Positions 19,686 to 29,528 of a DNA stretch of 64,000 bases are shown one piece after another. Both the position numbers and the translations under genes were made by a program. The number at the start of each line of letters is the position of its first letter. Positions within the stretch are counted from its first letter, which is position 1. The notes under the pieces are model-generated. The model did no database searches. It saw only the letters and a program-made list of their open reading frames with translations, and was not told the DNA's origin. The DNA comes from Methylosinus sp. H3A (GTDB taxonomy: Bacteria > Pseudomonadota > Alphaproteobacteria > Rhizobiales > Beijerinckiaceae), in the NCBI RefSeq assembly GCF_015709455.1, contig NZ_JADNQW010000005.1, forward strand, positions 3,864,001 through 3,928,000, written 5' to 3'.

Positions 19686-20981
19686 TCAGGGCATGTCGCC
19701 GGCGACGAACTTCGGAATGACCGGGCCGCCGATTTCGGTGGCGTAGCGCTTGCCCGACGGGCCGAAGAACATCAGCAGACCGCCGATCTGGCTGTCCGTG
19801 TCATAGGCCAGATCCGAGAGACGCTCGATGTCCCAACGGGCGTCCTGAACCTTGATCTCGATCGTCTTCGTCTCGCCCGGCGCGATCGGCGTCGGATCGG
19901 TCGACAGACCGCGGTCGGCCAGCAAATAGTCCGGGAACTCGGGCTTCGTCGTGAACACGTCGGGGTTCAGGAAGCGAAGGCCGGCAGCCGTATATTCGCC
20001 GAGCTTCAGCGGCTCGTCCGTCTTGTTGGTGATCTTGACCTGGATCGTCAGCTCGCGGCCCGGAACCTTGTAGACGCCGCCCTTGAGGTCGGCGAGAACA
20101 ACCTTGGTTCCCACGCCGGCGGTGCCTTCCTCGATGATCGGCGTCAGCGGCTTCTGCAAGCCGGCCTGAAGCGGGATCGTGCGCGGGAAGGTGCTGTTCG
20201 TCACAGCATAGCCGATGATCGTCGCCAGGATCGTCACAGCGAGAACGATCGCGCCGACGCGACGGTCGTCGTCGCCGATCTGCTCATCGTCCTTGCCTTC
20301 GCTGATGCGCAGGTAGGAAGCGATGATGCCCTTCTTGAAGAACCAGTAGAGGATCCAGGCCGCAGCCGCGATCATCCACGGGAAGTGCCAGGCGTAGATG
20401 CGGTCGATGCCGTAGGTCTCGAGGTCCACGGTCGTGCCGTCCAGCAGCGTGACAGGGTCGCGGAAGTCCGCCATGTCGCCCTTGATCTCGATCCACTGGC
20501 CGGGTCCGATGATCGGGCCGCCGCCTTCGACGTTGATCTGCGCATGAACGTGCCAACGGCCCGCGCGGCGCGCCTTCAGATCGATCTGGAACGCATAGTC
20601 CTTGCCGACCTCCAGCGAAACCGAGCGCGGAGCGAACTGCTCGCCGATGAACTGCGCCGTGCGCACCAGAACCGGGCCCGGCTCGCCGGCGTTCAGGAAC
20701 GACGACTTCGGGTTCGCGACGGCCTGCGGCCAAGCCGAGAACACATGCACCTTGCCCGAAAGCACCATCGACTCGTTGACGTTCAGAGAGGTCTTCGACC
20801 ACTTCACGTCATACCAGTTCAGCGTGCGCATGCGCAGGAACGCCTGCTGCGACTTCTCGCCATGCGCCGACGCCGGAGCGACGGAGCCCATCGTTGCGAC
20901 GACCGCAGCCGCCATGCCCAGGCCGAAGAGCCGAGCGACCCGTCCGGTCGCCAGCACGGCCATTCTCTCCAACAGTTTCAT
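19686..20981 (-). CDS. pmoB: Particulate methane monooxygenase subunit B
   Basis: PmoB is the mainly periplasmic subunit of pMMO, which oxidises methane to methanol. The 431-residue protein has a signal peptide cleaved before H40-GEKSQQ. The N-terminal His and the H144/H146 pair in RWHVHAQINVEGGG are the known copper ligands. Two membrane helices (about 250-275 and 305-325) separate two cupredoxin-like domains. Length equals that of M. trichosporium PmoB. GGGAGG lies seven bases before the ATG at 20981; a longer frame exists upstream but runs through the pmoA-pmoB spacer and does not resemble PmoB. It is the last gene of pmoCAB. Confidence 0.98.
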   Translation of the reverse strand: MKLLERMAVLATGRVARLFGLGMAAAVVATMGSVAPASAHGEKSQQAFLRMRTLNWYDVKWSKTSLNVNESMVLSGKVHVFSAWPQAVANPKSSFLNAGEPGPVLVRTAQFIGEQFAPRSVSLEVGKDYAFQIDLKARRAGRWHVHAQINVEGGGPIIGPGQWIEIKGDMADFRDPVTLLDGTTVDLETYGIDRIYAWHFPWMIAAAAWILYWFFKKGIIASYLRISEGKDDEQIGDDDRRVGAIVLAVTILATIIGYAVTNSTFPRTIPLQAGLQKPLTPIIEEGTAGVGTKVVLADLKGGVYKVPGRELTIQVKITNKTDEPLKLGEYTAAGLRFLNPDVFTTKPEFPDYLLADRGLSTDPTPIAPGETKTIEIKVQDARWDIERLSDLAYDTDSQIGGLLMFFGPSGKRYATEIGGPVIPKFVAGDMP

Positions 20982-21142
20982 GGAACAACCTCCCAAGTTT
21001 CTCTTCGCGGACCAGCCCTGCGGGCCGATCGTCCGCTGTCGTCCTTGTCGGGAGCGGCTCGGTCCCGGACTCTCTTGCAGGAGCCCTTCGCAGCCGCCCC
21101 TCCTCGCGTGAGGGATCTCGTGATCCACGACCTCGCGGTCGA

Positions 21143-21901
21143 TCAGATCTTGGTGATCACCTTCGTGGTGGAGTACCACTTGCCGACGAACCACCACAGG
21201 AAGTACACGAGCATCGACACGAAGCCCGAGAAGAACGCGGCCACAGGCACGACGTCCTTACCGAAGGTGCGCAGCGTGCCGCGCTCGACCATGCGGATAT
21301 ATTCCGGCATCGAGGTGCGGACGAAGTGGAGGCCGATCAGATCGGCCAGCGACATAAGCTGACCATGCTGCTCCGTCGCCTGGTGGAAGGCGGCGATCGC
21401 CGGCCAGTTGTTCGGGTAGAACAGCAGACCCCAGCCCAGAGCGCCGACCACAGCCGTGATCACATAGGAGCCCGACAGCAGCAGGATGATGTCCAGCCAC
21501 AGAGCCGGAACGACCAGAGCCGACGGGAACACCAGGCTGATCGGGAAGTAGGTCCAGCCCCAGAAGTTCACATAGCGGTTGATCCACTCGCCGATCAGAA
21601 GGCCGAGCACCGCGAAGGTCGCGCCGAACGGGAGCTTGAAGTTCTCCCACAGGAACGCCTGCGCCGCAGCCGCGAAGGTCACGCCCAGGATCGGGATGAC
21701 AGTCGGCCACATACGACGGTCTTTCCAGTCGACCCAGAAGTCCCAGTCGCCAGCCGTCAGCATGAAGTGAATGTGATAGCCGCCCAGCACTGCCAGAAAC
21801 AGCAGCGTCAAAATCAGCCAGTCGGACGTCTTAACGCATCCCGCCGCTTCCGCGATGGAATGGAAAGGCCCGATAGCCCCCCCGCTCTTCGATGTAGACA
21901 T
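21143..21901 (-). CDS. pmoA: Particulate methane monooxygenase subunit A
   Basis: PmoA is the integral membrane subunit most used to classify methanotrophs. This 252-residue form begins MSTSKSGGAIGPFHSIAEAAG and contains AGDWDFWVDWKDRRMWP, the region of the usual PCR primer, and the final GKWYSTTKVITKI. It matches the pMMO1 type of Methylosinus/Methylocystis rather than the divergent pMMO2 or Pxm forms. The ATG at 21901 is preceded by AAGGAGA; a GTG at 21904 is in frame but unneeded. Spacers of about 260 and 160 bases separate it from pmoC and pmoB. Confidence 0.98.
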   Translation of the reverse strand: MSTSKSGGAIGPFHSIAEAAGCVKTSDWLILTLLFLAVLGGYHIHFMLTAGDWDFWVDWKDRRMWPTVIPILGVTFAAAAQAFLWENFKLPFGATFAVLGLLIGEWINRYVNFWGWTYFPISLVFPSALVVPALWLDIILLLSGSYVITAVVGALGWGLLFYPNNWPAIAAFHQATEQHGQLMSLADLIGLHFVRTSMPEYIRMVERGTLRTFGKDVVPVAAFFSGFVSMLVYFLWWFVGKWYSTTKVITKI

Positions 21902-21927
21902 CACTCTTCTCCTTGGTGTCTGTCCGT

Positions 21928-21945
21928 CCGGCGTCTCGACGCCGG
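21928..21945 (-). repeat. Seven-base-pair hairpin before pmoA
   Basis: CCGGCGT / ACGCCGG with loop CTCG lies about 27 bases before the pmoA start in the pmoC-pmoA spacer. It may be an mRNA processing or stability element. Confidence 0.4.
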
Positions 21946-22160
21946 CGTCTCGAGACCTGTCTCCGGCTCTCTCGCGCCGGATTGTCCTTTGGAATGCGTC
22001 TCTCCGGCTCTCCGCCCGGCGCGCCCTTCGCCCAAACCCCGCCCGAACCGCCGCGCAGCGCGGCCGTCCGGACGAAGTCTTTGTTCCGGGAGCATTCGGA
22101 AAAGTCGTCGCCGGAGGCGGCCGTCCGCGCAGCGCGCGGGCGGCCTCGTTCAGGCTCTTA

Positions 22161-22931
22161 TCAGCCGATCAGCGCCGCGACGCCGTCCTTGCCCAGCAGG
22201 CGCTTCACGCCGGCCAGGATCTGCAGCACCACGCCGAACACGCCGAGCGCCATCCAGCCGAAGAACACGAAGCCCCAATGCAGCGGAGCGACGAAAAGCT
22301 CTTCCATGAACCAGAAGGTGTGGCCCCACTCGTTGAGACCGACGTTCGGGATGATCATGAACGGGCCGATGGCGACGATCAGGAACGCCAGCGAGTAGCC
22401 GTGAGCGAAGAACGGGATGCGGGTCTTCGCATAGAAGAACGAGCCCACGCCCATGATCGAGTAGATCGGGTAGCTCAGATAGAACTCGATGATGTGCGAC
22501 GGCGTGAAGTCCGTGTCGCGAATCACCGTCATGTGCCAGGTGCCGTCCTGCTCCGTGAAGAAGCTCGCGCCCCAGTAGATCGCCACCGCATAGACCGTCA
22601 GCCACTGCAGCAGAACGACATGGCGGCGCAGCTCTTCGCGCGGAGCCACCGCGTCGACGTTGCGGTCGCGGGTCTTCCACAGATAGCCGGCGAGGCCGAG
22701 ACCGGCCACGAGCTCCAGCGGAATTTCCGTCCACAGCATCGTCAGCCAATAGGTCTGAAACTCCGGAGCGAACGAGTCGAGGCCCGCGCGCCAGCCGAAG
22801 ATCTGCTCATAAATGCGGATGAACAGATAAAAAACGTTGAGCACCGTGATCCCGATCCACATGCCCTTCAGGTCCACGATGGCATCTGAGCCGGCGGCTG
22901 CGCCGGCCGATGTCTCTGTCGTTACGCTCAT
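22161..22931 (-). CDS. pmoC: Particulate methane monooxygenase subunit C
   Basis: PmoC is an integral membrane subunit of pMMO that holds the CuC/CuD metal sites. The 256-residue protein has six or so helices. The conserved ligands align as D129 (EQDGTW), H133 and H146 (DFTPSHIIEFYLSYPIYS), matching the Asp-x3-His-x12-His pattern of the characterised enzyme. AGGAGG sits 8 bases before the ATG at 22931, so the longer open frame upstream, which crosses the promoter, was not used. It is the first gene of pmoCAB, with a leader of about 320 bases before it. Confidence 0.98.
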   Translation of the reverse strand: MSVTTETSAGAAAGSDAIVDLKGMWIGITVLNVFYLFIRIYEQIFGWRAGLDSFAPEFQTYWLTMLWTEIPLELVAGLGLAGYLWKTRDRNVDAVAPREELRRHVVLLQWLTVYAVAIYWGASFFTEQDGTWHMTVIRDTDFTPSHIIEFYLSYPIYSIMGVGSFFYAKTRIPFFAHGYSLAFLIVAIGPFMIIPNVGLNEWGHTFWFMEELFVAPLHWGFVFFGWMALGVFGVVLQILAGVKRLLGKDGVAALIG

Positions 22932-23516
22932 CTCAATTCCTCCTAAGTGCTCCCAGGGATTCTCGAAGCGATTTCGCCGCGTCCCGCCTCCCTGCTCGGC
23001 ACGCGCCTTCGTCTCCGCGGTTGATGTCGTCGCAGTCGCTTCTTCTCGTCGGACGAAGCGCCGTCCCGACCTCCCGTTCTCACCGTCGCGCCGAACCTCA
23101 AAAGGACCGACCGGCGGCTTTCTTCTTGTTTGCTCGGTGACGAATTCTTTCGAAATCGCCGCGCGAAACGAAAACCTCGAACGCCCGCGCCTCCCAGCGC
23201 CAAAACATCCGAAACGCCCCCGTTCGGCGAGCCGCAACCATTTCCGTTCCGCCCCATAATGACAATATCCAATAGGGTAGGTCAAAATAATCTATAGAGT
23301 AGTTACTGGTGATCTATCAGGTGGCTTATGTGGCGCCGCAATTTCGGGCGGTCCCACCCGCGCCAACGCCCGCCCGATTCCCAGGACGGGAATTGAAGCG
23401 GGCTTTATTCAGCATGATATGATGATCGATGCGCCTATTGTTTCGGCGCCGCAGCCATAAATTCGCCTGCCTGTCTGGGCTGTGACAGAATGGCTTAGGC
23501 TGCGGCGCGGCGCCGC
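22932..23516. other. Upstream region of pmoCAB: long leader and promoter
   Basis: This 585-base region holds the putative pmo promoter (23256-23285) and a leader of about 320 bases before pmoC. The segment 23255-23330 is strikingly AT-rich against the GC-rich surroundings. Codon-like structure is absent. The rest, up to the end of the phosphoesterase gene at 23517, contains AT-rich words such as GATATGATGATCGATG near 23418 but no clear site. Confidence 0.6.
23256..23285 (-). promoter_or_regulatory. Putative sigma-70 promoter of pmoCAB
   Basis: On the minus strand TTGACC (23285-23280) is separated by 18 bases from CATTAT (23261-23256), four of six matches to the -10 consensus, in the only AT-rich block upstream of pmoC. 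pmo operons of type II methanotrophs are known to use sigma-70-like promoters some 300 bases upstream; the exact start is not proven here. Confidence 0.55.
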
Positions 23517-24968
23517 TCAGCGGGTAGCGCTTCCCGGCGCCGTCACGGTCGTCTCCAGCGCATTGCGCAGATCCGCGGCGCCCTTGTCGCGCGCGGTGAG
23601 CGGCGCCAATGCGAAGCGAGTCTCGATCGTCGCCAGAATCGACGCCGTGTCATAGATCGTGCGGTCGACGAATCCCTTTTTCGCAAAGGGCGAAAGAATC
23701 AACGTCGGCACGCGCGCGCCGGGGCCGAAACGGTCGATCTTCGGCGGAGCGACATGATCCCAGGCGCCGCCATTCTCATCGGCGGTGACGATGATCAGCA
23801 TGTCTCGCCAATTGGGGCTGCGCCGCAGCCGCGCGACGACCTCCTCGAGATGCGCGTCGCCGGTCTTGAGATCGGCGTAGCTGGGATGCTCGTTGAATTT
23901 GCCGACCGGCTTGTAGAAGGACACGGCGGGCAGAGTCCCCGCCTCCGCGGCTGCGAAGAGATCATCGGCGTCCTTCAGATGCAGCTCCCGCTCCTGCGCG
24001 CCGGCCGCGAAATTCGCAAAATAGAGGAAGGGCTGATGATGCGTCTGGAAAAACTCCGGCGCCTCGCGCTGGCGAATGCGCCCGGCGCGCATGTCGTTCC
24101 AGCCGCCGGCGTACCATGCCCATGACACGCCCTTTTCCGTGAGCCGATCGCCGATCGTCGGCTGCGTCTGCGGCGGCAGGCCGAATCCCGCCGGCGTGGC
24201 GGAGTCGCGCGGCGAGAGCGGCGTCGGCGGCTGCAGTGTGCTCACCGCATAGCCGTCGCTCGTCACGGGTCCGGGCTTTCGATAGTGCGGCGGGCCGATA
24301 TGCGCGCTCTTGGGCGAATCCGCGGCGAGCGCGAGCAAGCCGGTCGCCTCGTCGACCTCCGCGATCAACGACGGCGGCGCCGAAGGAAAGGTCGGCGCGC
24401 AAGCGCAGACGAGGAACATATGATTGAGGAAGGAGCCGCCGAAGGCGCCGTGGAAGAAATGATCGGCGAGCGTGAACTCCTGGGCGAGGCGCCATTGCGC
24501 GAGCGAGCGGCCGTCATAATAGCCCATGACCAGCCCGCCCGCCCCGGAAACGGCGGCGAAGCGATCCATTTTTCCGCCGTTTATCTGCTCCTTCTCCTGG
24601 AAGAAGTCATGCGTCATATCCGGCGTCTTCTCCGCATTGGGCAGGAAGGCGTCGATCGGGAATGGCGCATTGGGGAGAATGGACGGAAAGCGGCTGTCGA
24701 CGCCCTTGTCGCCGCGGATCGGCGGCAATTCGCCGAAAGGCTTGCCGTCGAAATCGACCTGGGCGAAGCGATCTGCGCCTATGCCGAGTCCCTCGGCGCC
24801 TGGATAGAGGCCGAAGACATTATCGAAACTGCGGTTCTCCGTGTAGATGACGACGATATGGCCGATCGCGGCGAAAGGATTTGAGGCCTCTTGCGCGAGC
24901 GCGGAGCCGGTGAGGCCGAAAATCAGCGGCCAAGCGAACGCTTTGGCGAAAATCCGTGAGAGCGTCAT
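23517..24968 (-). CDS. Secreted PF04185-type phosphoesterase (acid phosphatase / phospholipase C-like)
   Basis: This 483-residue protein has a signal peptide (residues 1-25, ending ALAQE). The superfamily start IGHIVVIYTENRSFDNVFGLYPG supplies the metal-binding Glu-Asn. Later motifs include TLADHFFHGAFGGSFLNHMFLVCAC and LIIVTADENGGAWDHVAPP, with the conserved Asp-Glu and His. These enzymes hydrolyse phosphate esters of lipids or small molecules in the periplasm; acid phosphatase AcpA-type and phospholipase C-type members cannot be separated by eye. It reads toward pmoC on the same strand. The gene after it on the other side is a di-haem peroxidase. Confidence 0.85.
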   Translation of the reverse strand: MTLSRIFAKAFAWPLIFGLTGSALAQEASNPFAAIGHIVVIYTENRSFDNVFGLYPGAEGLGIGADRFAQVDFDGKPFGELPPIRGDKGVDSRFPSILPNAPFPIDAFLPNAEKTPDMTHDFFQEKEQINGGKMDRFAAVSGAGGLVMGYYDGRSLAQWRLAQEFTLADHFFHGAFGGSFLNHMFLVCACAPTFPSAPPSLIAEVDEATGLLALAADSPKSAHIGPPHYRKPGPVTSDGYAVSTLQPPTPLSPRDSATPAGFGLPPQTQPTIGDRLTEKGVSWAWYAGGWNDMRAGRIRQREAPEFFQTHHQPFLYFANFAAGAQERELHLKDADDLFAAAEAGTLPAVSFYKPVGKFNEHPSYADLKTGDAHLEEVVARLRRSPNWRDMLIIVTADENGGAWDHVAPPKIDRFGPGARVPTLILSPFAKKGFVDRTIYDTASILATIETRFALAPLTARDKGAADLRNALETTVTAPGSATR

Positions 24969-25103: not shown

Positions 25104-26168
25104 TCAGTGGCCCTGCTTCGCGCCGACCTCCAGCTGCGGATGCGGCGTCGCATTGGTGCGCGCCGGCAGGATCGGATAGTCGACCTTCGGCTGCTCGCCG
25201 GTCAGCGCTCCGAGGAAGGCGACGATCGCCGTCGTCTCGTCGGGCGCGAGCTCGACGCCGAGCTGCGTTTTCGCCATGAGCGAGACCGCCTCCTCCAGCG
25301 TCCACACCTGGCCGGTATGGAAGTAGGGAGCGCGCAGCGCGACATTGCGCAGCGGCGCGACGCGGAAGGAGAACACATCCGCCGGGCTCTTGGTGACGGC
25401 GAAACGACCCTTGTCGCCCTCCGGCAGAACGGCCGGCGCCGGCTTCTCGACCGCGCCGAACTGAGTGTAGTTGCCGCCGCCGATATTCACGCCGTCGTGG
25501 CAACCGCTACACCCCTTGTCGAGGAAGAGGCGCAGGCCCTTCTTCTGCGTCGCGTCGAGCGCCGCCTCGTCGCCGCCGAGGAATTTGTCGAAGCGCGAGC
25601 CGGGTGTGACCAGCGTCGACTCGAAGGCCTCGATCGCCTTGGCGAAATTGTCGAAATTGGCGGCCTTGTTGTCACCGGGGAAGGCCTTTTGGAAGGAGGC
25701 GACATAGCCCGGAATGCTGTTCAGCGTCGCCTCGACATTGGCGGGCGTGTTGTTCATCTCGACGCCGGCCTGCACGGGGCCCTTGGCCTGCGCCTTCAGA
25801 TCCTCGGCGCGGCCGTCCCAGAACTGAGCGACGTTGAACACGGCGTTGAGAACGGTCGGCGCACGGCGCGGGCCTTTCTGCCAGCCATGTCCGACAGAGG
25901 TGGAGCCGGCGTCGACGCCGCCGAGGCTCAGATTATGGCACGAGTTGCAGCTGATGAGCTGGCTCGAGGAGATGCGCGGATCGAAGAACAGCTGCTTGCC
26001 GAGCTCGATCTTGGCAGGCGTGAGGTCGTTGTTCTTCACGGCCTTGGCGGCCGCCGCCGGGGTGATCGGCTTGAAGACGGCGTTGGCGTCGCTCCGCAGA
26101 TCGCCCGCGATAGCGGCGAACGGGAACAGCGCCATCACGCTCAGCGTGGCGATGAATGCACGTGACAT
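25104..26168 (-). CDS. Di-haem cytochrome c peroxidase
   Basis: This 354-residue periplasmic protein has a signal peptide (residues 1-21) and two haem c motifs, CNSCH (74-78) and CSGCH (220-224). Bacterial peroxidase marks include FFDPRISSSQLISC, NAVFNVAQFWDGRAEDL, and LRNVALRAPYFHTGQVWTLEEAV near the C-terminus. It should reduce hydrogen peroxide with electrons from small cytochromes or cupredoxins. GGAGGAG lies 10 bases before the ATG at 26168. It is divergent from a second di-haem protein of the MauG type; they share a 393-base promoter region. Confidence 0.9.
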   Translation of the reverse strand: MSRAFIATLSVMALFPFAAIAGDLRSDANAVFKPITPAAAAKAVKNNDLTPAKIELGKQLFFDPRISSSQLISCNSCHNLSLGGVDAGSTSVGHGWQKGPRRAPTVLNAVFNVAQFWDGRAEDLKAQAKGPVQAGVEMNNTPANVEATLNSIPGYVASFQKAFPGDNKAANFDNFAKAIEAFESTLVTPGSRFDKFLGGDEAALDATQKKGLRLFLDKGCSGCHDGVNIGGGNYTQFGAVEKPAPAVLPEGDKGRFAVTKSPADVFSFRVAPLRNVALRAPYFHTGQVWTLEEAVSLMAKTQLGVELAPDETTAIVAFLGALTGEQPKVDYPILPARTNATPHPQLEVGAKQGH

Positions 26169-26561
26169 TTTCCGAGGGCTCCTCCGATTGGGAAACGAGC
26201 GTGCGCTGCGAAACAGCCTCGGCCCGAACCGCCGCCCGCCTACCACAAGCTGGGCTCTCGGGCAAAGGCAATAATGCAGCAAATTACGAGAAATCATGTA
26301 ATTGCAACTATAGCGTGGCAATTTTCTCGATTATGTCGATTTGACGACATGATCGCATCCGCAGATATTGTTCTCGTCCCGGAACGCTGAAATATTTTTG
26401 CGCTGCACAGCTAGAGTTACTGGCGAGGCCGAAGACAAAAGCTCTGTGCAGACCATGAGAAGCCTTGCCGATTAGAAAAATTCCAGGCAGGATCGTGGCC
26501 CTCGCGCCGACGAAAAGAAGCGGGAGCATCCGACAGGGCGCGACGAGTCGGGGAGGAAGAC
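26169..26561. other. Divergent promoter region between two di-haem peroxidase genes
   Basis: This 393-base stretch is AT-rich at 26270-26410, the expected place for two back-to-back promoters. A plausible plus-strand promoter is at 26341. On the minus strand TTGCCA and CATGAT with a 17-base spacer are possible near 26325-26297. No reading frame inside is convincing. Confidence 0.55.
26341..26369 (+). promoter_or_regulatory. Putative sigma-70 promoter for the MauG-like operon
   Basis: TTGACG (26341-26346), 17-base spacer, GATATT (26364-26369; four of six matches). It lies in the AT-rich block and would give a leader of about 185 bases. Confidence 0.45.
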
Positions 26562-27716
26562 ATGGCCGTGCGCAAGCGCGCCGCGACACTGCTCGCGGCA
26601 ATGCTCAGTCTTTCAGGGCTCGGTCTCGCGGACGTCGCTCGCGCGGAGCCGCTGGGCCTTCCGCCTGTCCCTATTCCTCAGGACAATCCGCAGACAGCCG
26701 ACAAGATCGCGCTCGGCAATCGGCTGTTTCACGATCTGCGTTTTTCTTCCGATGGAACGGTCGCCTGCGCCACCTGCCACAAGGACGACCACGCCTTCAC
26801 CGACAGCCCGCTGCGCACCTCCGAGGGGATTCGCGCCGAGGGCGGAGTCGGCAAGAAGACCGGCACGCGCAATGCGCCGACGATCATCAACGCCGCCTAT
26901 TTCACGACGCTCTTCTGGGACGGACGCTCGGCCTCGCTGGAGGATCAGTCGCAGCATCCCTTTCTCAATCCCGTCGAGATGGGCCTCGCCACGCATGAGC
27001 CGATCCTCGCCATAGCGCGCTCCGATCCCTTCTATGTCGAGCTCTTCAAAAAAGCCTTCGGCAAGAGCGGCGCTGGCGTGACGATGGAGGAGGTGAAGAA
27101 AGCCATCGCCGCCTATGAGCGCACCATCGTCTCCGCCGATTCGCCTTTCGACCGCTGGCGCTTCGGCCATGAGGAGAATGCGATATCGGAAGGCGCGAAG
27201 CGCGGCTTCGAGGTGTTCATCGGCCAGGGCCGCTGTGTCTCCTGCCATGTGATCGAGCAGGATCAAGCGCTGTTCACCGACAATCGCTTCCACAATATCG
27301 GCGTCGGCATCAATCGGGCGCAGTTCGACGTCCCTCGACTCTCCGCCGAATTCCTGACCGCCAAGGCGAAGGGCGCCGACGTCGACAAGGCCGTGCTCAC
27401 CGACCCCAAGACGTCCGAGCTCGGCCGTTTCGCCGTCACCGATCAATTCGACGTGATCGGCGCCTTCAAGACGCCGACCTTGCGCAATGTCGCGGTCACC
27501 GCGCCCTATATGCACGACGGCTCGCTGAAGACGCTGAAAGACGTCGTCAAGCATTACAATAATGGCGGGCGCAGCGAAGGCGATCCGGCTAAGGTGAATG
27601 ATTATCTCTCCGGCGGCATTCGCCCGCTCAACCTCTCCGAGCAGCAGATGGACGATCTCGTCGCCTTCATGGAGACGCTCACCACGCCGGCCTATTTCGG
27701 CGCCAAAACCAGATGA
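26562..27716 (+). CDS. MauG/MbnH-type di-haem c enzyme (peroxidase superfamily)
   Basis: This 384-residue exported protein has a signal peptide (residues 1-28, ending ARAEP) and haem motifs CATCH (69-73) and CVSCH (225-229). Other marks are GNRLFHDLRFSSDG, TTLFWDGRSASLEDQ, FKTPTLRNVAVTAPYMHDGSLKTL and a C-terminal LVAFMETLTTP. This set is closer to the MauG/MbnH branch, which oxidises protein side chains, than to the neighbouring classic peroxidase, but plain peroxidase activity is not excluded. It starts an operon with a phosphoesterase, a cytochrome and a Cys-rich protein; a leaderless role in methanobactin biosynthesis is not indicated, since no mbn genes are present. Confidence 0.8.
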   Translation: MAVRKRAATLLAAMLSLSGLGLADVARAEPLGLPPVPIPQDNPQTADKIALGNRLFHDLRFSSDGTVACATCHKDDHAFTDSPLRTSEGIRAEGGVGKKTGTRNAPTIINAAYFTTLFWDGRSASLEDQSQHPFLNPVEMGLATHEPILAIARSDPFYVELFKKAFGKSGAGVTMEEVKKAIAAYERTIVSADSPFDRWRFGHEENAISEGAKRGFEVFIGQGRCVSCHVIEQDQALFTDNRFHNIGVGINRAQFDVPRLSAEFLTAKAKGADVDKAVLTDPKTSELGRFAVTDQFDVIGAFKTPTLRNVAVTAPYMHDGSLKTLKDVVKHYNNGGRSEGDPAKVNDYLSGGIRPLNLSEQQMDDLVAFMETLTTPAYFGAKTR

Positions 27717-27756
27717 GCTGAACGCCGCGCGCGATCGCGAAAAAGGAGCCGAGCAG

Positions 27757-28830
27757 ATGAGCGAATTCATCACCAGGCGGAGCGTGCTCGCGGGAGCCGG
27801 CGCCGGCGCGGCGCTGACCACTCTGCCGATCAGCATGGTCACACTGGCCTTCGGCGGGACGCGCGAGGATTTCACCTTCACCTATATTTCCGACGCGCAT
27901 ATCCAGCAGATCAAGGGCGCGAGCTTCGTGCGCAATTGGGATCAGGGGCTGAAACGCGCCGTCGCCGAAGCCAATCTGGTGAAGCCGGAATCCGATTTCG
28001 TCATCTTCGGCGGCGATCTCGCCCAGCTCGGCAAGCGCGAGGAGCTGGACCACGGCGCCGAAATGCTCTCCAAGCTCAAAGGCAAGCTGCACGTGGTCAT
28101 GGGCGAGCACGATTATTATCTCGATCTCGGCGATTATTGGAGCAAACTCTACGGCCCACATTACTACAGCTTCGACCATAAGGGCGTGCATTTCGTCGTG
28201 CTGAACTCGATTTTGACCAGCGAGCAATGGACCTTCCATCGCTGGCCGACGGCCGAGCAGCGCATGCTGGAGATGGCGGGGCTCGACAATCCCAATGGCT
28301 CGCCCTTCATGGTCGGCGACAAGCAGCGAAAATGGCTCGCCAATGATCTCGCCAAGCTGGACAAGAAGACGCCGCTCGTCGTCTTCTCCCATTCGCCGCT
28401 GCAGAAGATCTACAAGGGCTGGAACTTCTGGACCGACGACGCCGACGAGGTTCAGGCGCTGCTTCAACCCTTCGACAGCGTGAACGTCATCTACGGCCAT
28501 GTGCATCAGATTCAGTACAATCAGATCGGCAACATCAGCTTCAATTCGGTGATGGCGACGGCCTGGCCCTGGCCCTATCCGCAGAGCTATGCGCAGGCCG
28601 AGAGCCATCTGCCCGTGCTCACCATTCCGATGAACCGCGCCGATCCGTTTTTCGAGCGCGACGCCACCGGTTGGCAATTGATCGACATAGGCTCTGGCCG
28701 CGTCACCGCGCGCTATCAGCTCTGGGACAATGACCAGCGCACAGTCGCCTTCGACCACAAGGCCGGGCGTCCGGTCGATGTCGCCTATCAGGAGCCGACG
28801 CAGCGTCGTCTGCCGCAAACCCATTATTGA
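27757..28830 (+). CDS. Exported calcineurin-like metallophosphoesterase
   Basis: This 357-residue protein begins with a twin-arginine leader (FITRRSVLAGAGAGAALTTLP), so it is probably folded before export. Metallophosphoesterase motifs follow in order: YISDAHIQ, FVIFGGDLAQLG, VVMGEHDYY, LVVFSHSPLQ and VIYGHVHQIQYNQ, together supplying the Asp/His/Asn ligands of a di-metal site. The GEHD motif replaces the usual GNHD. It begins 40 bases after the MauG-like gene with an AAGGAGCC site, and ends 12 bases before the cytochrome gene, so all four belong to one transcript. The substrate is unknown. Confidence 0.85.
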   Translation: MSEFITRRSVLAGAGAGAALTTLPISMVTLAFGGTREDFTFTYISDAHIQQIKGASFVRNWDQGLKRAVAEANLVKPESDFVIFGGDLAQLGKREELDHGAEMLSKLKGKLHVVMGEHDYYLDLGDYWSKLYGPHYYSFDHKGVHFVVLNSILTSEQWTFHRWPTAEQRMLEMAGLDNPNGSPFMVGDKQRKWLANDLAKLDKKTPLVVFSHSPLQKIYKGWNFWTDDADEVQALLQPFDSVNVIYGHVHQIQYNQIGNISFNSVMATAWPWPYPQSYAQAESHLPVLTIPMNRADPFFERDATGWQLIDIGSGRVTARYQLWDNDQRTVAFDHKAGRPVDVAYQEPTQRRLPQTHY

Positions 28831-28842
28831 TCGGAGTTCGCC

Positions 28843-29244
28843 ATGCTTCGCTCGACTTTGCTTCTCGCTTTCGGTCTCGCCGCCTTCGGCGCGACGGCGG
28901 CGCGCGCCGATGAATTCACCAAGGCCGACGTCGAGCGCTATCAGAAGGAATTCGAGCTCGTGGCCGCGAAAGGTCGCGAATTATGGACGAGCGGCGCGGT
29001 CGGGACCAATGGCGTCGCCTGCGCGCAATGCCACCCCAACGCCGCCAACACGCACCCCGAGACCTATCCGAAGTTCCAGAAGCAGCTCGGCAAGGTGGCG
29101 CAGCTCTTCGAGATGGTGAACTGGTGCATTCGCAATCCGCTGCAGGGCGCAAATCTCGCGCCCGACGATCCGCGCATGACGGCGCTCGTCTCCTACATTA
29201 CATTCGAGCGGCGCGGCGTGAAGCTCGCGCCGGGCCAGCATTGA
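28843..29244 (+). CDS. SoxA-like mono-haem cytochrome c
   Basis: This 133-residue periplasmic cytochrome has a signal peptide (residues 1-22, ending ARADE) and one haem motif CAQCH (60-64). The following HPNAANTHPETYPKFQ and NWCIRNPLQG, with an additional Cys at 95, resemble the haem domain of SoxA and related thiosulphate-oxidising cytochromes, but no sox genes are nearby. D109-R-M111 supplies a possible axial Met. It may pass electrons to or from the MauG-like enzyme upstream; that link is inferred from gene order. Confidence 0.8.
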   Translation: MLRSTLLLAFGLAAFGATAARADEFTKADVERYQKEFELVAAKGRELWTSGAVGTNGVACAQCHPNAANTHPETYPKFQKQLGKVAQLFEMVNWCIRNPLQGANLAPDDPRMTALVSYITFERRGVKLAPGQH

Positions 29245-29270
29245 GCACGCCAAAATCGAGGACACGCGCT

Positions 29271-29528
29271 ATGCGAAAAACCTTTGCTCTCGCCCTGCCC
29301 GCCCTGCTGATCGCCGGCTCCGCTTTGGCCGCCGCGGGCGACCAGCCTCGCGACGCGCAGAACCTCACGGGCGCCTCCGCCCCGGCTCAGGCGGCGGCGG
29401 CTCTCTCCCCTTGCGCCGGCTGCGCGGGTCACGATTGCGCCAATTGTCCGATGGCTCTGGCCGCCGCCGCGCAGGCGGCGACCGGAACGGCGCAACCGCC
29501 GGCCCCGATCCGCTGCAGCGTCGACTGA
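29271..29528 (+). CDS. Small Cys-rich secreted protein
   Basis: This 85-residue protein has a signal peptide (residues 1-20, ending SALAA), an Ala/Gln-rich spacer, then a C-x2-C-x4-C-x2-C motif (C48, C51, C56, C59) with H54, D55 and M61 close by, and a last Cys at 82 in the C-terminal RCSVD. It is the last gene of the MauG-like operon, 26 bases after the cytochrome, with a GAGGA site. The motif could bind a metal, form disulfides, or be a target of side-chain oxidation. I do not recognise a family. Confidence 0.75.
   Translation: MRKTFALALPALLIAGSALAAAGDQPRDAQNLTGASAPAQAAAALSPCAGCAGHDCANCPMALAAAAQAATGTAQPPAPIRCSVD

Follow-up and report, generated by a model that had tools for sequence, protein, structure and literature searches.

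Four genes for exported proteins in Methylosinus sp. H3A

We analysed a stretch of 64,000 nucleotides from Methylosinus sp. H3A (contig NZ_JADNQW010000005.1, positions 3,864,001 to 3,928,000), which is called the window in the following. Its plus strand contains four consecutive genes whose products are exported. The first one codes for a di-haem enzyme (DIHEM; 26562-27716, 384 residues) with the haem motifs CATCH and CVSCH. It is followed by the genes for a calcineurin-fold protein with Tat-type export (MPE; 27757-28830, 357 residues, N-terminus MSEFITRRSVLAGAG), for a SoxA/TsdA-type mono-haem cytochrome with one CAQCH motif (CYT; 28843-29244, 133 residues), and for a Cys-rich protein, which is accessory to Methylosinus-type loci (CYSR; 29271-29528, 85 residues). 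The gaps read directly from the sequence are 40, 12, and 26 bases; the four exported proteins, their positions and the spacing of 12-40 bases had been given accurately in a first-pass annotation of the window. The closest relatives of the locus belong to Methylosinus, and MPE is 97% identical to its counterpart from M. sporium DSM 17706 (locus L031). The first-pass annotation had further proposed that the four genes form an undescribed conserved unit. A unit with conserved gene order does exist; however, it comprises three genes and not four, because CYSR occurs only in Methylosinus-type loci.

DIHEM, MPE and CYT form a widespread three-gene cassette

Scanning species genomes with MPE yielded 215 stretches that encode a relative, and the best 80 of these 215 were analysed. 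As these loci were selected by means of MPE, they are biased to near relatives, and a DIHEM without MPE is invisible among them. The genes for DIHEM, MPE and CYT were found in the same order and on one strand in 77 of the 80 loci, with median gaps of 13 and 26 bases; the order is thus kept beyond chance. DIHEM is truncated by a contig start in three of the 77 loci (L060, L074, L089). With respect to the three exceptions, L037 and L068 stop at contig ends, and L059 contains no match to CYT. In the latter locus (L059:7995-13181), which stems from an Omnitrophota bin and was omitted from the tree, a long repeat domain follows MPE in the same frame, which is due to a fusion or to an assembly error.

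According to the record titles, the cassette spans 12 phyla; outside Pseudomonadota every title denotes a metagenome-assembled genome, and stray contigs are possible there. This breadth speaks against the methanotroph and copper context in which the genes had been placed initially. Outside the Methylocystis and Methylosinus loci, the sequence identity to the window copy is 69-75% for MPE and 54-68% for DIHEM. At the same time, the occurrence is patchy: among 299 genomes from the phylum to which the window belongs, a close MPE was found in two and a divergent one (230.8 bits) in one.

An independent draw of 121 genomes from the order of Methylobacter tundripaludum SV96 can also reveal a DIHEM that lacks MPE. 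DIHEM (E <= 1e-110) was detected in 25 genomes, MPE (E <= 1e-60) in 25, and both in 24, where the two genes are located on one strand and 20-89 bases apart. The genome with MPE only is interrupted by a contig end; a DIHEM fragment precedes MPE and CYT lies behind it. The genome with DIHEM only contains a 51% paralogue, and no MPE or CYT was present within the 6 kb fetched. In the 44 genomes searched, there was one DIHEM match of at least 421 bits per genome, and the next best match reached 346 bits. The comparison of gene order that the first-pass annotation had recommended has thereby been made, and the order is conserved in related as well as in distant genomes. The phosphoesterase, which had seemed to have no obvious place, can now be considered a close partner of DIHEM. 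The conserved unit is the widespread three-gene cassette DIHEM-MPE-CYT. A literature search, which covered few subscription journals and no preprints, found no description of it.

DIHEM is a Tyr-bearing enzyme of the MauG type

DIHEM belongs to the family CCP_MauG (PF03150, E 3.2e-54). Its nearest relative of solved structure is the entry 6e1c, named "Di-heme enzyme" (E 5.4e-48, 167 bits), which we take to be MbnH. For the alignment of DIHEM, sequences from 76 of the 80 loci plus the window were used; those with a coverage below 75% were left out. All 77 cassette sequences contain a Tyr at the axial place (Tyr332 of the window copy), which aligns with the Tyr of MbnH and with a Met of DIHEM2, a second di-haem protein encoded in the window. 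As judged from this alignment, Tyr332 probably ligates the six-coordinate haem. Glu139, which presumably occupies the place of the distal Glu, is invariant in the 37 sequences aligned, and Trp119 of the FWDGR motif is nearly invariant. Due to the conservation of Tyr332 and of Glu139/Trp119 we assign DIHEM to the MauG type, although it scores below the cut-offs of the models for MbnH (TIGR04039; 259.9 or 260.1 versus 362.85 bits) and for MauG forming tryptophan tryptophylquinone (TIGR03791; 217.5 versus 443.85 bits). The initial designation as a MauG/MbnH-type enzyme is thus sound, as a Tyr is found where plain peroxidases have a Met. It is on this axial residue only that a plain cytochrome c peroxidase was ruled out.

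DIHEM was also rejected as the MbnH of this organism. Besides the score below the cut-off, the genome encodes a separate MbnH (481.8 bits), which adjoins MbnP elsewhere in the genome; DIHEM must therefore be a separate paralogue that has another partner. Within the window there is no known target, as had been stated earlier; the MbnH-MbnP pair is encoded elsewhere in the genome. Two matches to MbnP were found, at C5:2455870 and at C5:1110869, and neither is located at the cassette. The second of these MbnP-family genes (G000 C5:1110869-1111768, 265.8 bits) lies apart from the MbnH-MbnP pair. By the tests made, the cassette works like a MauG-type partner system that is outside the MbnH, MauG, and plain peroxidase families.

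MPE is a calcineurin-fold protein with a GEHD motif

Both the family score (PF00149 Metallophos, E 7.7e-12) and the fold identify MPE as a metallophosphoesterase-like protein, and its match to the Tat-signal family is just under the cut-off (18.0 versus 22.7 bits). A predicted model of middling confidence (pLDDT 71.9) suggests the fold of GpdQ, Rv0805 and purple acid phosphatases; a second model was no better (pLDDT 69.6) and was not used. Residues 269-288, among them several invariant Trp, have a pLDDT below 50 in the first model. When this predicted structure was used for a Foldseek search, SoxB appeared at rank 38 (E 3.5e-3), far below GpdQ and Rv0805.

Calcineurin-like metallophosphoesterases have a usual metal motif, which we take to be GNH[DE]. 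At the site of the common GNHD, all 81 MPE sequences contain GEHD. The residues D46, H48, D87, H118, H212, H248, and H250, presumably the usual metal-motif residues, are invariant. The same is true for 10 Trp and 5 Tyr (81/81), and the window MPE contains no Cys. Of 8000 proteins scored, 4210 are relatives of MPE at E <= 1e-5, of which 120 were listed; most are unnamed. Six weaker relatives were inspected, five of which contain GNHD and the sixth (L021) GEHD. None of the five GNHD proteins had an adjoining seed match for a cupredoxin, an extracytoplasmic function (ECF) sigma factor or a cytochrome, nor an adjoining CxxCH frame.

CYT belongs to the SoxA/TsdA family and CYSR is accessory

CYT matches the family SoxA-TsdA_cyt-c (PF21342, E 8.4e-14; 51.8 bits, cut-off 27), whereas its score for SoxA proper (TIGR04484) is 45.4 bits and thus below the cut-off of 110. 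The alignment comprised sequences from 77 of the 80 loci plus the window, with the same coverage threshold of 75% as above. A Cys at position 95 and a His as C-terminal residue are present in 78 of 78 sequences. Cys95 aligns with a Cys of SoxA and of TsdA, which we take to be their haem ligand.

CYSR contains the motif CAGCAGHDCANC, i.e. C-x2-C-x4-C-x2-C, and an additional Cys near its C-terminus. A family profile search assigned no family. Its 14 relatives in a protein search all contain the C-x2-C-x4-C-x2-C motif, and the seven named ones all come from Methylosinus. By BLAST (E 1e-4), no match was detected in loci L035-L110 nor in the near-identical locus L031. Purifying selection acts on CYSR, as indicated by dN/dS values of 0.25-0.39 in six comparisons (eight loci tried), with dS being near saturation in two of them. 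CYSR is a real accessory gene of Methylosinus-type loci and lies outside the conserved core. The first-pass idea that it is a core member or the target of DIHEM was abandoned for this narrow distribution.

GEHD proteins usually keep an electron carrier and probably exchange the acceptor

Related genomes, and also that of the window, encode divergent GEHD proteins of about 315 residues. In all 14 loci they adjoin an electron carrier, which is a cupredoxin in 13 cases and a cytochrome c in one; the cupredoxin matches of L016, L114, and L115 sit in over-long frames. A gene for an ECF sigma factor is also present in 14 of 14 loci, which form a separate conserved group (e.g. L025:715-2800). A paper on a sigma factor of Bradyrhizobium inducible by reactive oxygen species (PMC3420878) does not mention copper, phosph- or plastocyanin in its available part.

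A second divergent MPE, which is 37-40% identical, is accompanied by a relative of CYT and a CcoN-like oxidase subunit in 4 of 149 genomes, all from one family. These loci also contain SCO1 and an exported protein of the carboxypeptidase-regulatory type, and all genes are present in 4 of 4 cases. No DIHEM exists at these four loci; the best DIHEM-like match in their genomes has 137.9 bits, compared with at least 421 bits for DIHEMs of the cassette. One of the loci (L152) carries an OxyR-type gene (263.9 bits, cut-off 329). These partners indicate that a GEHD protein is usually accompanied by a small electron carrier, while the acceptor changes. The oxidase subunits of the DIHEM-free loci score below the cbb3 cut-offs. 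In L126:7124-13682, which combines the CcoN-like subunit with SCO1, the carboxypeptidase-regulatory-type protein, MPE and CYT, they are far below these cut-offs and may represent a distinct oxidase or an NO reductase.

Putative peroxide-type regulators flank part of the cassettes

In loci L050-L110, a Fur/PerR-type gene is located upstream of the cassette in 12 cases and downstream of CYT in two. All 14 matches to the Fur seed flank the cassette, and none was found elsewhere in these loci. A LysR protein that is nearest to OxyR was found in four loci, and a LysR protein consisting of the helix-turn-helix domain only in seven. Judged by spacing, the four OxyR-like proteins contain both Cys of what we take to be the redox pair. 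For a strict count, the 54 loci of this set were considered that carry the complete cassette together with 600 bases of upstream sequence. A Fur/PerR-, OxyR- or LysR-type gene lies beside DIHEM in 22 of them, and 32 showed no regulator. Not among the 22 are L059, with a Fur-type gene 155 bases upstream, and L052 and L065, where it is downstream of CYT.

For five Fur-type proteins that were scanned, PerR models ranked first yet below their cut-off, with a Fur model close behind. The best match of one of these regulators among solved structures was 2fe3, Peroxide operon regulator (E 1.9e-21). Similarly, three OxyR-type proteins scored 219.8-275.3 bits (cut-off 329), and one OxyR-type protein matched the OxyR structure 4x6g (E 2.1e-68). 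LysR DNA-binding domains without sensor, encoded in frames of 91-169 residues, are found upstream of DIHEM in L055, L057, L058, L066, L078, L080, and L093; six of these seven frames end with [DE]INC plus a few residues. Such domains are a possible minimal regulator.

In individual loci, CYT is followed by a gene for peroxiredoxin (L050), for ferritin (L051), for an encapsulin-type ferritin (L110), or for rhodanese (L057). The ferritin-like gene of L110, from Methylobacter, is of the encapsulin type (PF22277, and TIGR04535 above the cut-off), and L108 is similar by eye. Exported rhodanese-type genes are located directly 3' of CYT in six loci; the one of L057 is above the Pfam cut-off, while those of L055, L058, L066, L078, and L080 were recognized by eye and contain a CxxGxR loop. 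More distant genes with a CSTGxR motif exist in L074, just under the rhodanese cut-off, and, by eye, in L076.

A periplasmic redox unit is the tentatively preferred interpretation

We favour, tentatively and with somewhat less than even confidence, the interpretation that the three proteins act together as a redox unit of the periplasm, with hydrogen peroxide as oxidant and MPE as its dimetal, redox-coupled component. This proposal starts from what was observed directly, namely the gene order, the haem and metal motifs, the altered neighbours, and the regulators of peroxide type that adjoin some of the cassettes. MPE, a calcineurin-fold protein that presumably binds two metals and has turned redox-coupled, would exchange electrons with CYT at its His/Cys-type haem; either its metals or its aromatic residues would be redox active. 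CYT would hand the electrons on to DIHEM, which would reduce H2O2 at its Tyr-ligated di-haem centre, so that electrons flow from MPE via CYT to DIHEM. In the relatives, the acceptor side would be replaced by a haem-copper oxidase with the CYT relative, or by a cupredoxin or cytochrome c. Two observations are at odds with this proposal. The window's own cassette has no Fur/PerR-, OxyR- or LysR-type gene and no other peroxide-type neighbour, and L021, despite its GEHD motif, likewise lacks a cupredoxin, ECF or cytochrome partner.

The main rival, which we regard as doubtful but serious, is a covalent maturation of MPE. A MauG-like DIHEM would use H2O2 to oxidize Trp or Tyr residues of MPE once, generating a protein-derived cofactor or a metal ligand, and CYT would feed or drain electrons. 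DIHEM is indeed a Tyr-bearing di-haem enzyme, and its close neighbour MPE has the 10 Trp and 5 Tyr that are invariant in all 81 sequences. If maturation took place, one would expect residues that are kept only alongside DIHEM. W61, W158, W163, Y246, and Y278 fit this expectation, as they are present in 81 of 81 DIHEM-linked MPEs and replaced or missing in the four DIHEM-free ones (0/4); however, this contrast is based on four sequences with 37-40% identity. Moreover, Y121, W128, W225, Y254, W270, W272, Y274, and W306, which are common to CYT-linked MPEs and not to the wider family, persist where DIHEM is absent; for those eight, DIHEM is therefore not needed. DIHEM also contains a Gly at the place that corresponds to Trp199 of MauG, although the genome's MbnH has no Trp there either. 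Precedents are MauG with methylamine dehydrogenase and, according to the available part of the respective report, the gene group mtoX-SCO1-mauG (PMC5739008). In addition, BthA adjoins a putative purple acid phosphatase, which the part of the paper at hand describes as a possible substrate of BthA (PMC6405878). We prefer the electron relay to a one-off maturation mainly because the carrier stays while the acceptor is swapped.

It is unlikely that the cassette serves an ordinary peroxide defence, in which DIHEM acts as a peroxidase with electrons from CYT, and MPE, not linked to the two, works in the envelope as a phosphatase or phosphodiesterase and is merely co-induced by the stress. The Fur/PerR and OxyR neighbours and the hydrolase fold of MPE with its conserved metal residues would fit, as would BthA, which is also Tyr-ligated and turns over H2O2 well according to the accessible part of its description (PMC6405878). 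On the other hand, MPE is better conserved than DIHEM, it adjoins 24 of the 25 strong DIHEMs in the unbiased draw, and its divergent relatives adjoin electron carriers as well. A Sox-like unit, in which CYT and MPE process a conjugate of sulfur or of a thiol with H2O2 as oxidant, is improbable: despite the membership of CYT in the SoxA/TsdA family including its Cys, the rhodanese-type genes in some loci, and the calcineurin-superfamily fold that SoxB shares with MPE, the SoxB match is weak, MPE has no Cys, CYT is under the SoxA cut-off, and the cassette encodes no SoxYZ-like carrier.

Going one step further, GEHD proteins might constitute a redox enzyme class that is new and based on the fold of calcineurin phosphoesterases. 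Its members would have an exported dimetal centre, exchange electrons with small carriers (a SoxA-type cytochrome, a cupredoxin or a cytochrome c), and finally deliver them to either H2O2 (via DIHEM) or O2 (via a haem-copper oxidase). Within this class, the cassette would represent the version that respires or disposes of peroxide. We consider this generalization rather unlikely at present. If GEHD proteins are redox coupled, many database names such as 3',5'-cyclic AMP phosphodiesterase or metallophosphoesterase would be misleading. The cassette may represent an undescribed coupling of hydrogen peroxide to a two-metal protein. Few partner proteins of MauG-type di-haem enzymes are known, and the cassette offers a clear and very widespread partner set.

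Comparison with known systems

The cassette resembles MbnH-MbnP, the di-haem enzyme and the copper protein from loci of the methanobactin type, in combining a Tyr-bearing MauG-type di-haem enzyme with an adjoining exported partner; it differs in that DIHEM is below the MbnH cut-off and that the partners are a calcineurin-fold protein and CYT. SoxB is a Tat-exported enzyme. With SoxA/SoxB and TsdA, the cassette has in common a SoxA/TsdA-type haem domain with its Cys and an enzyme of the calcineurin superfamily. In contrast, CYT is mono-haem and does not reach the cut-off for SoxA, the nearest matches of MPE are GpdQ and Rv0805, and SoxYZ is missing. From GpdQ, Rv0805, and purple acid phosphatases, MPE is distinguished by GEHD instead of GNHD, an extra Trp-rich region, and its redox neighbours. 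The CCP_MauG fold, the axial Tyr and H2O2 chemistry are shared with MauG of the mau cluster, whereas DIHEM is under the TIGR03791 cut-off and mau genes are absent from the cassette.

The BthA-phosA pair of Burkholderia is similar insofar as, according to the available part of its description, a Tyr-His di-haem enzyme always adjoins a putative purple acid-type phosphatase that is exported (PMC6405878). However, BthA (6nx0) is distant from DIHEM (61 bits, compared with 167 for 6e1c), phosA is upstream of BthA whereas MPE is downstream of DIHEM, and that part of the account mentions no CYT (PMC6405878). Our findings bear on this pair, as the same excerpt offers no explanation yet for a haem enzyme beside a phosphatase (PMC6405878). 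In mtoX-SCO1-mauG, according to the available section of the report (PMC5739008), a conserved MauG-like gene is likewise found beside a metalloenzyme. SCO1 also occurs at the DIHEM-free loci with MPE and CYT; the methanethiol oxidase, however, is an SBP56 protein and thus of a family other than MPE. The part at hand of a transcriptome study of M. capsulatus (PMC4831470) covers MauG-family genes and does not mention a phosphoesterase.

Neighbouring genes and putative signals

Back to back with the cassette, the minus strand encodes DIHEM2 (25104-26168), which sequence comparison classifies as a Met-type di-haem protein divergent from DIHEM, and, downstream of it, the exported acid phosphatase ACPA (23517-24968; PF04185, TIGR03397 above the cut-off). 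In loci L031-L049, DIHEM2 is present in this arrangement in 19 of 19 and ACPA in 15 of 19 cases. A general pairing of the two was rejected, since only one (L148) of six fetched relatives of ACPA (L144-L149) has an adjoining di-haem gene, which is divergent; the pairing is therefore claimed for L031-L049 only.

No terminator-like site was found in the region scanned for signals. A sigma-70-like promoter match directed toward DIHEM lies at 26341-26369 on the plus strand and agrees with the consensus, the sole criterion applied, in 9 of 12 positions. An opposite-facing match is located at 26321-26293, so that the two stand back to back in the intergenic region that DIHEM shares with DIHEM2; altogether, three matches were found in the region where 0.7 are expected. 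An inverted repeat, CTTGCC-N16-GGCAgG, was noticed by eye on the plus strand at 26463-26491, approximately 70-100 bases 5' of the DIHEM start. It is recognizable in five aligned Methylosinus-type loci and is a possible operator or hairpin. Farther away, pmoCAB was recognized by eye at 19686-23285 of the window.

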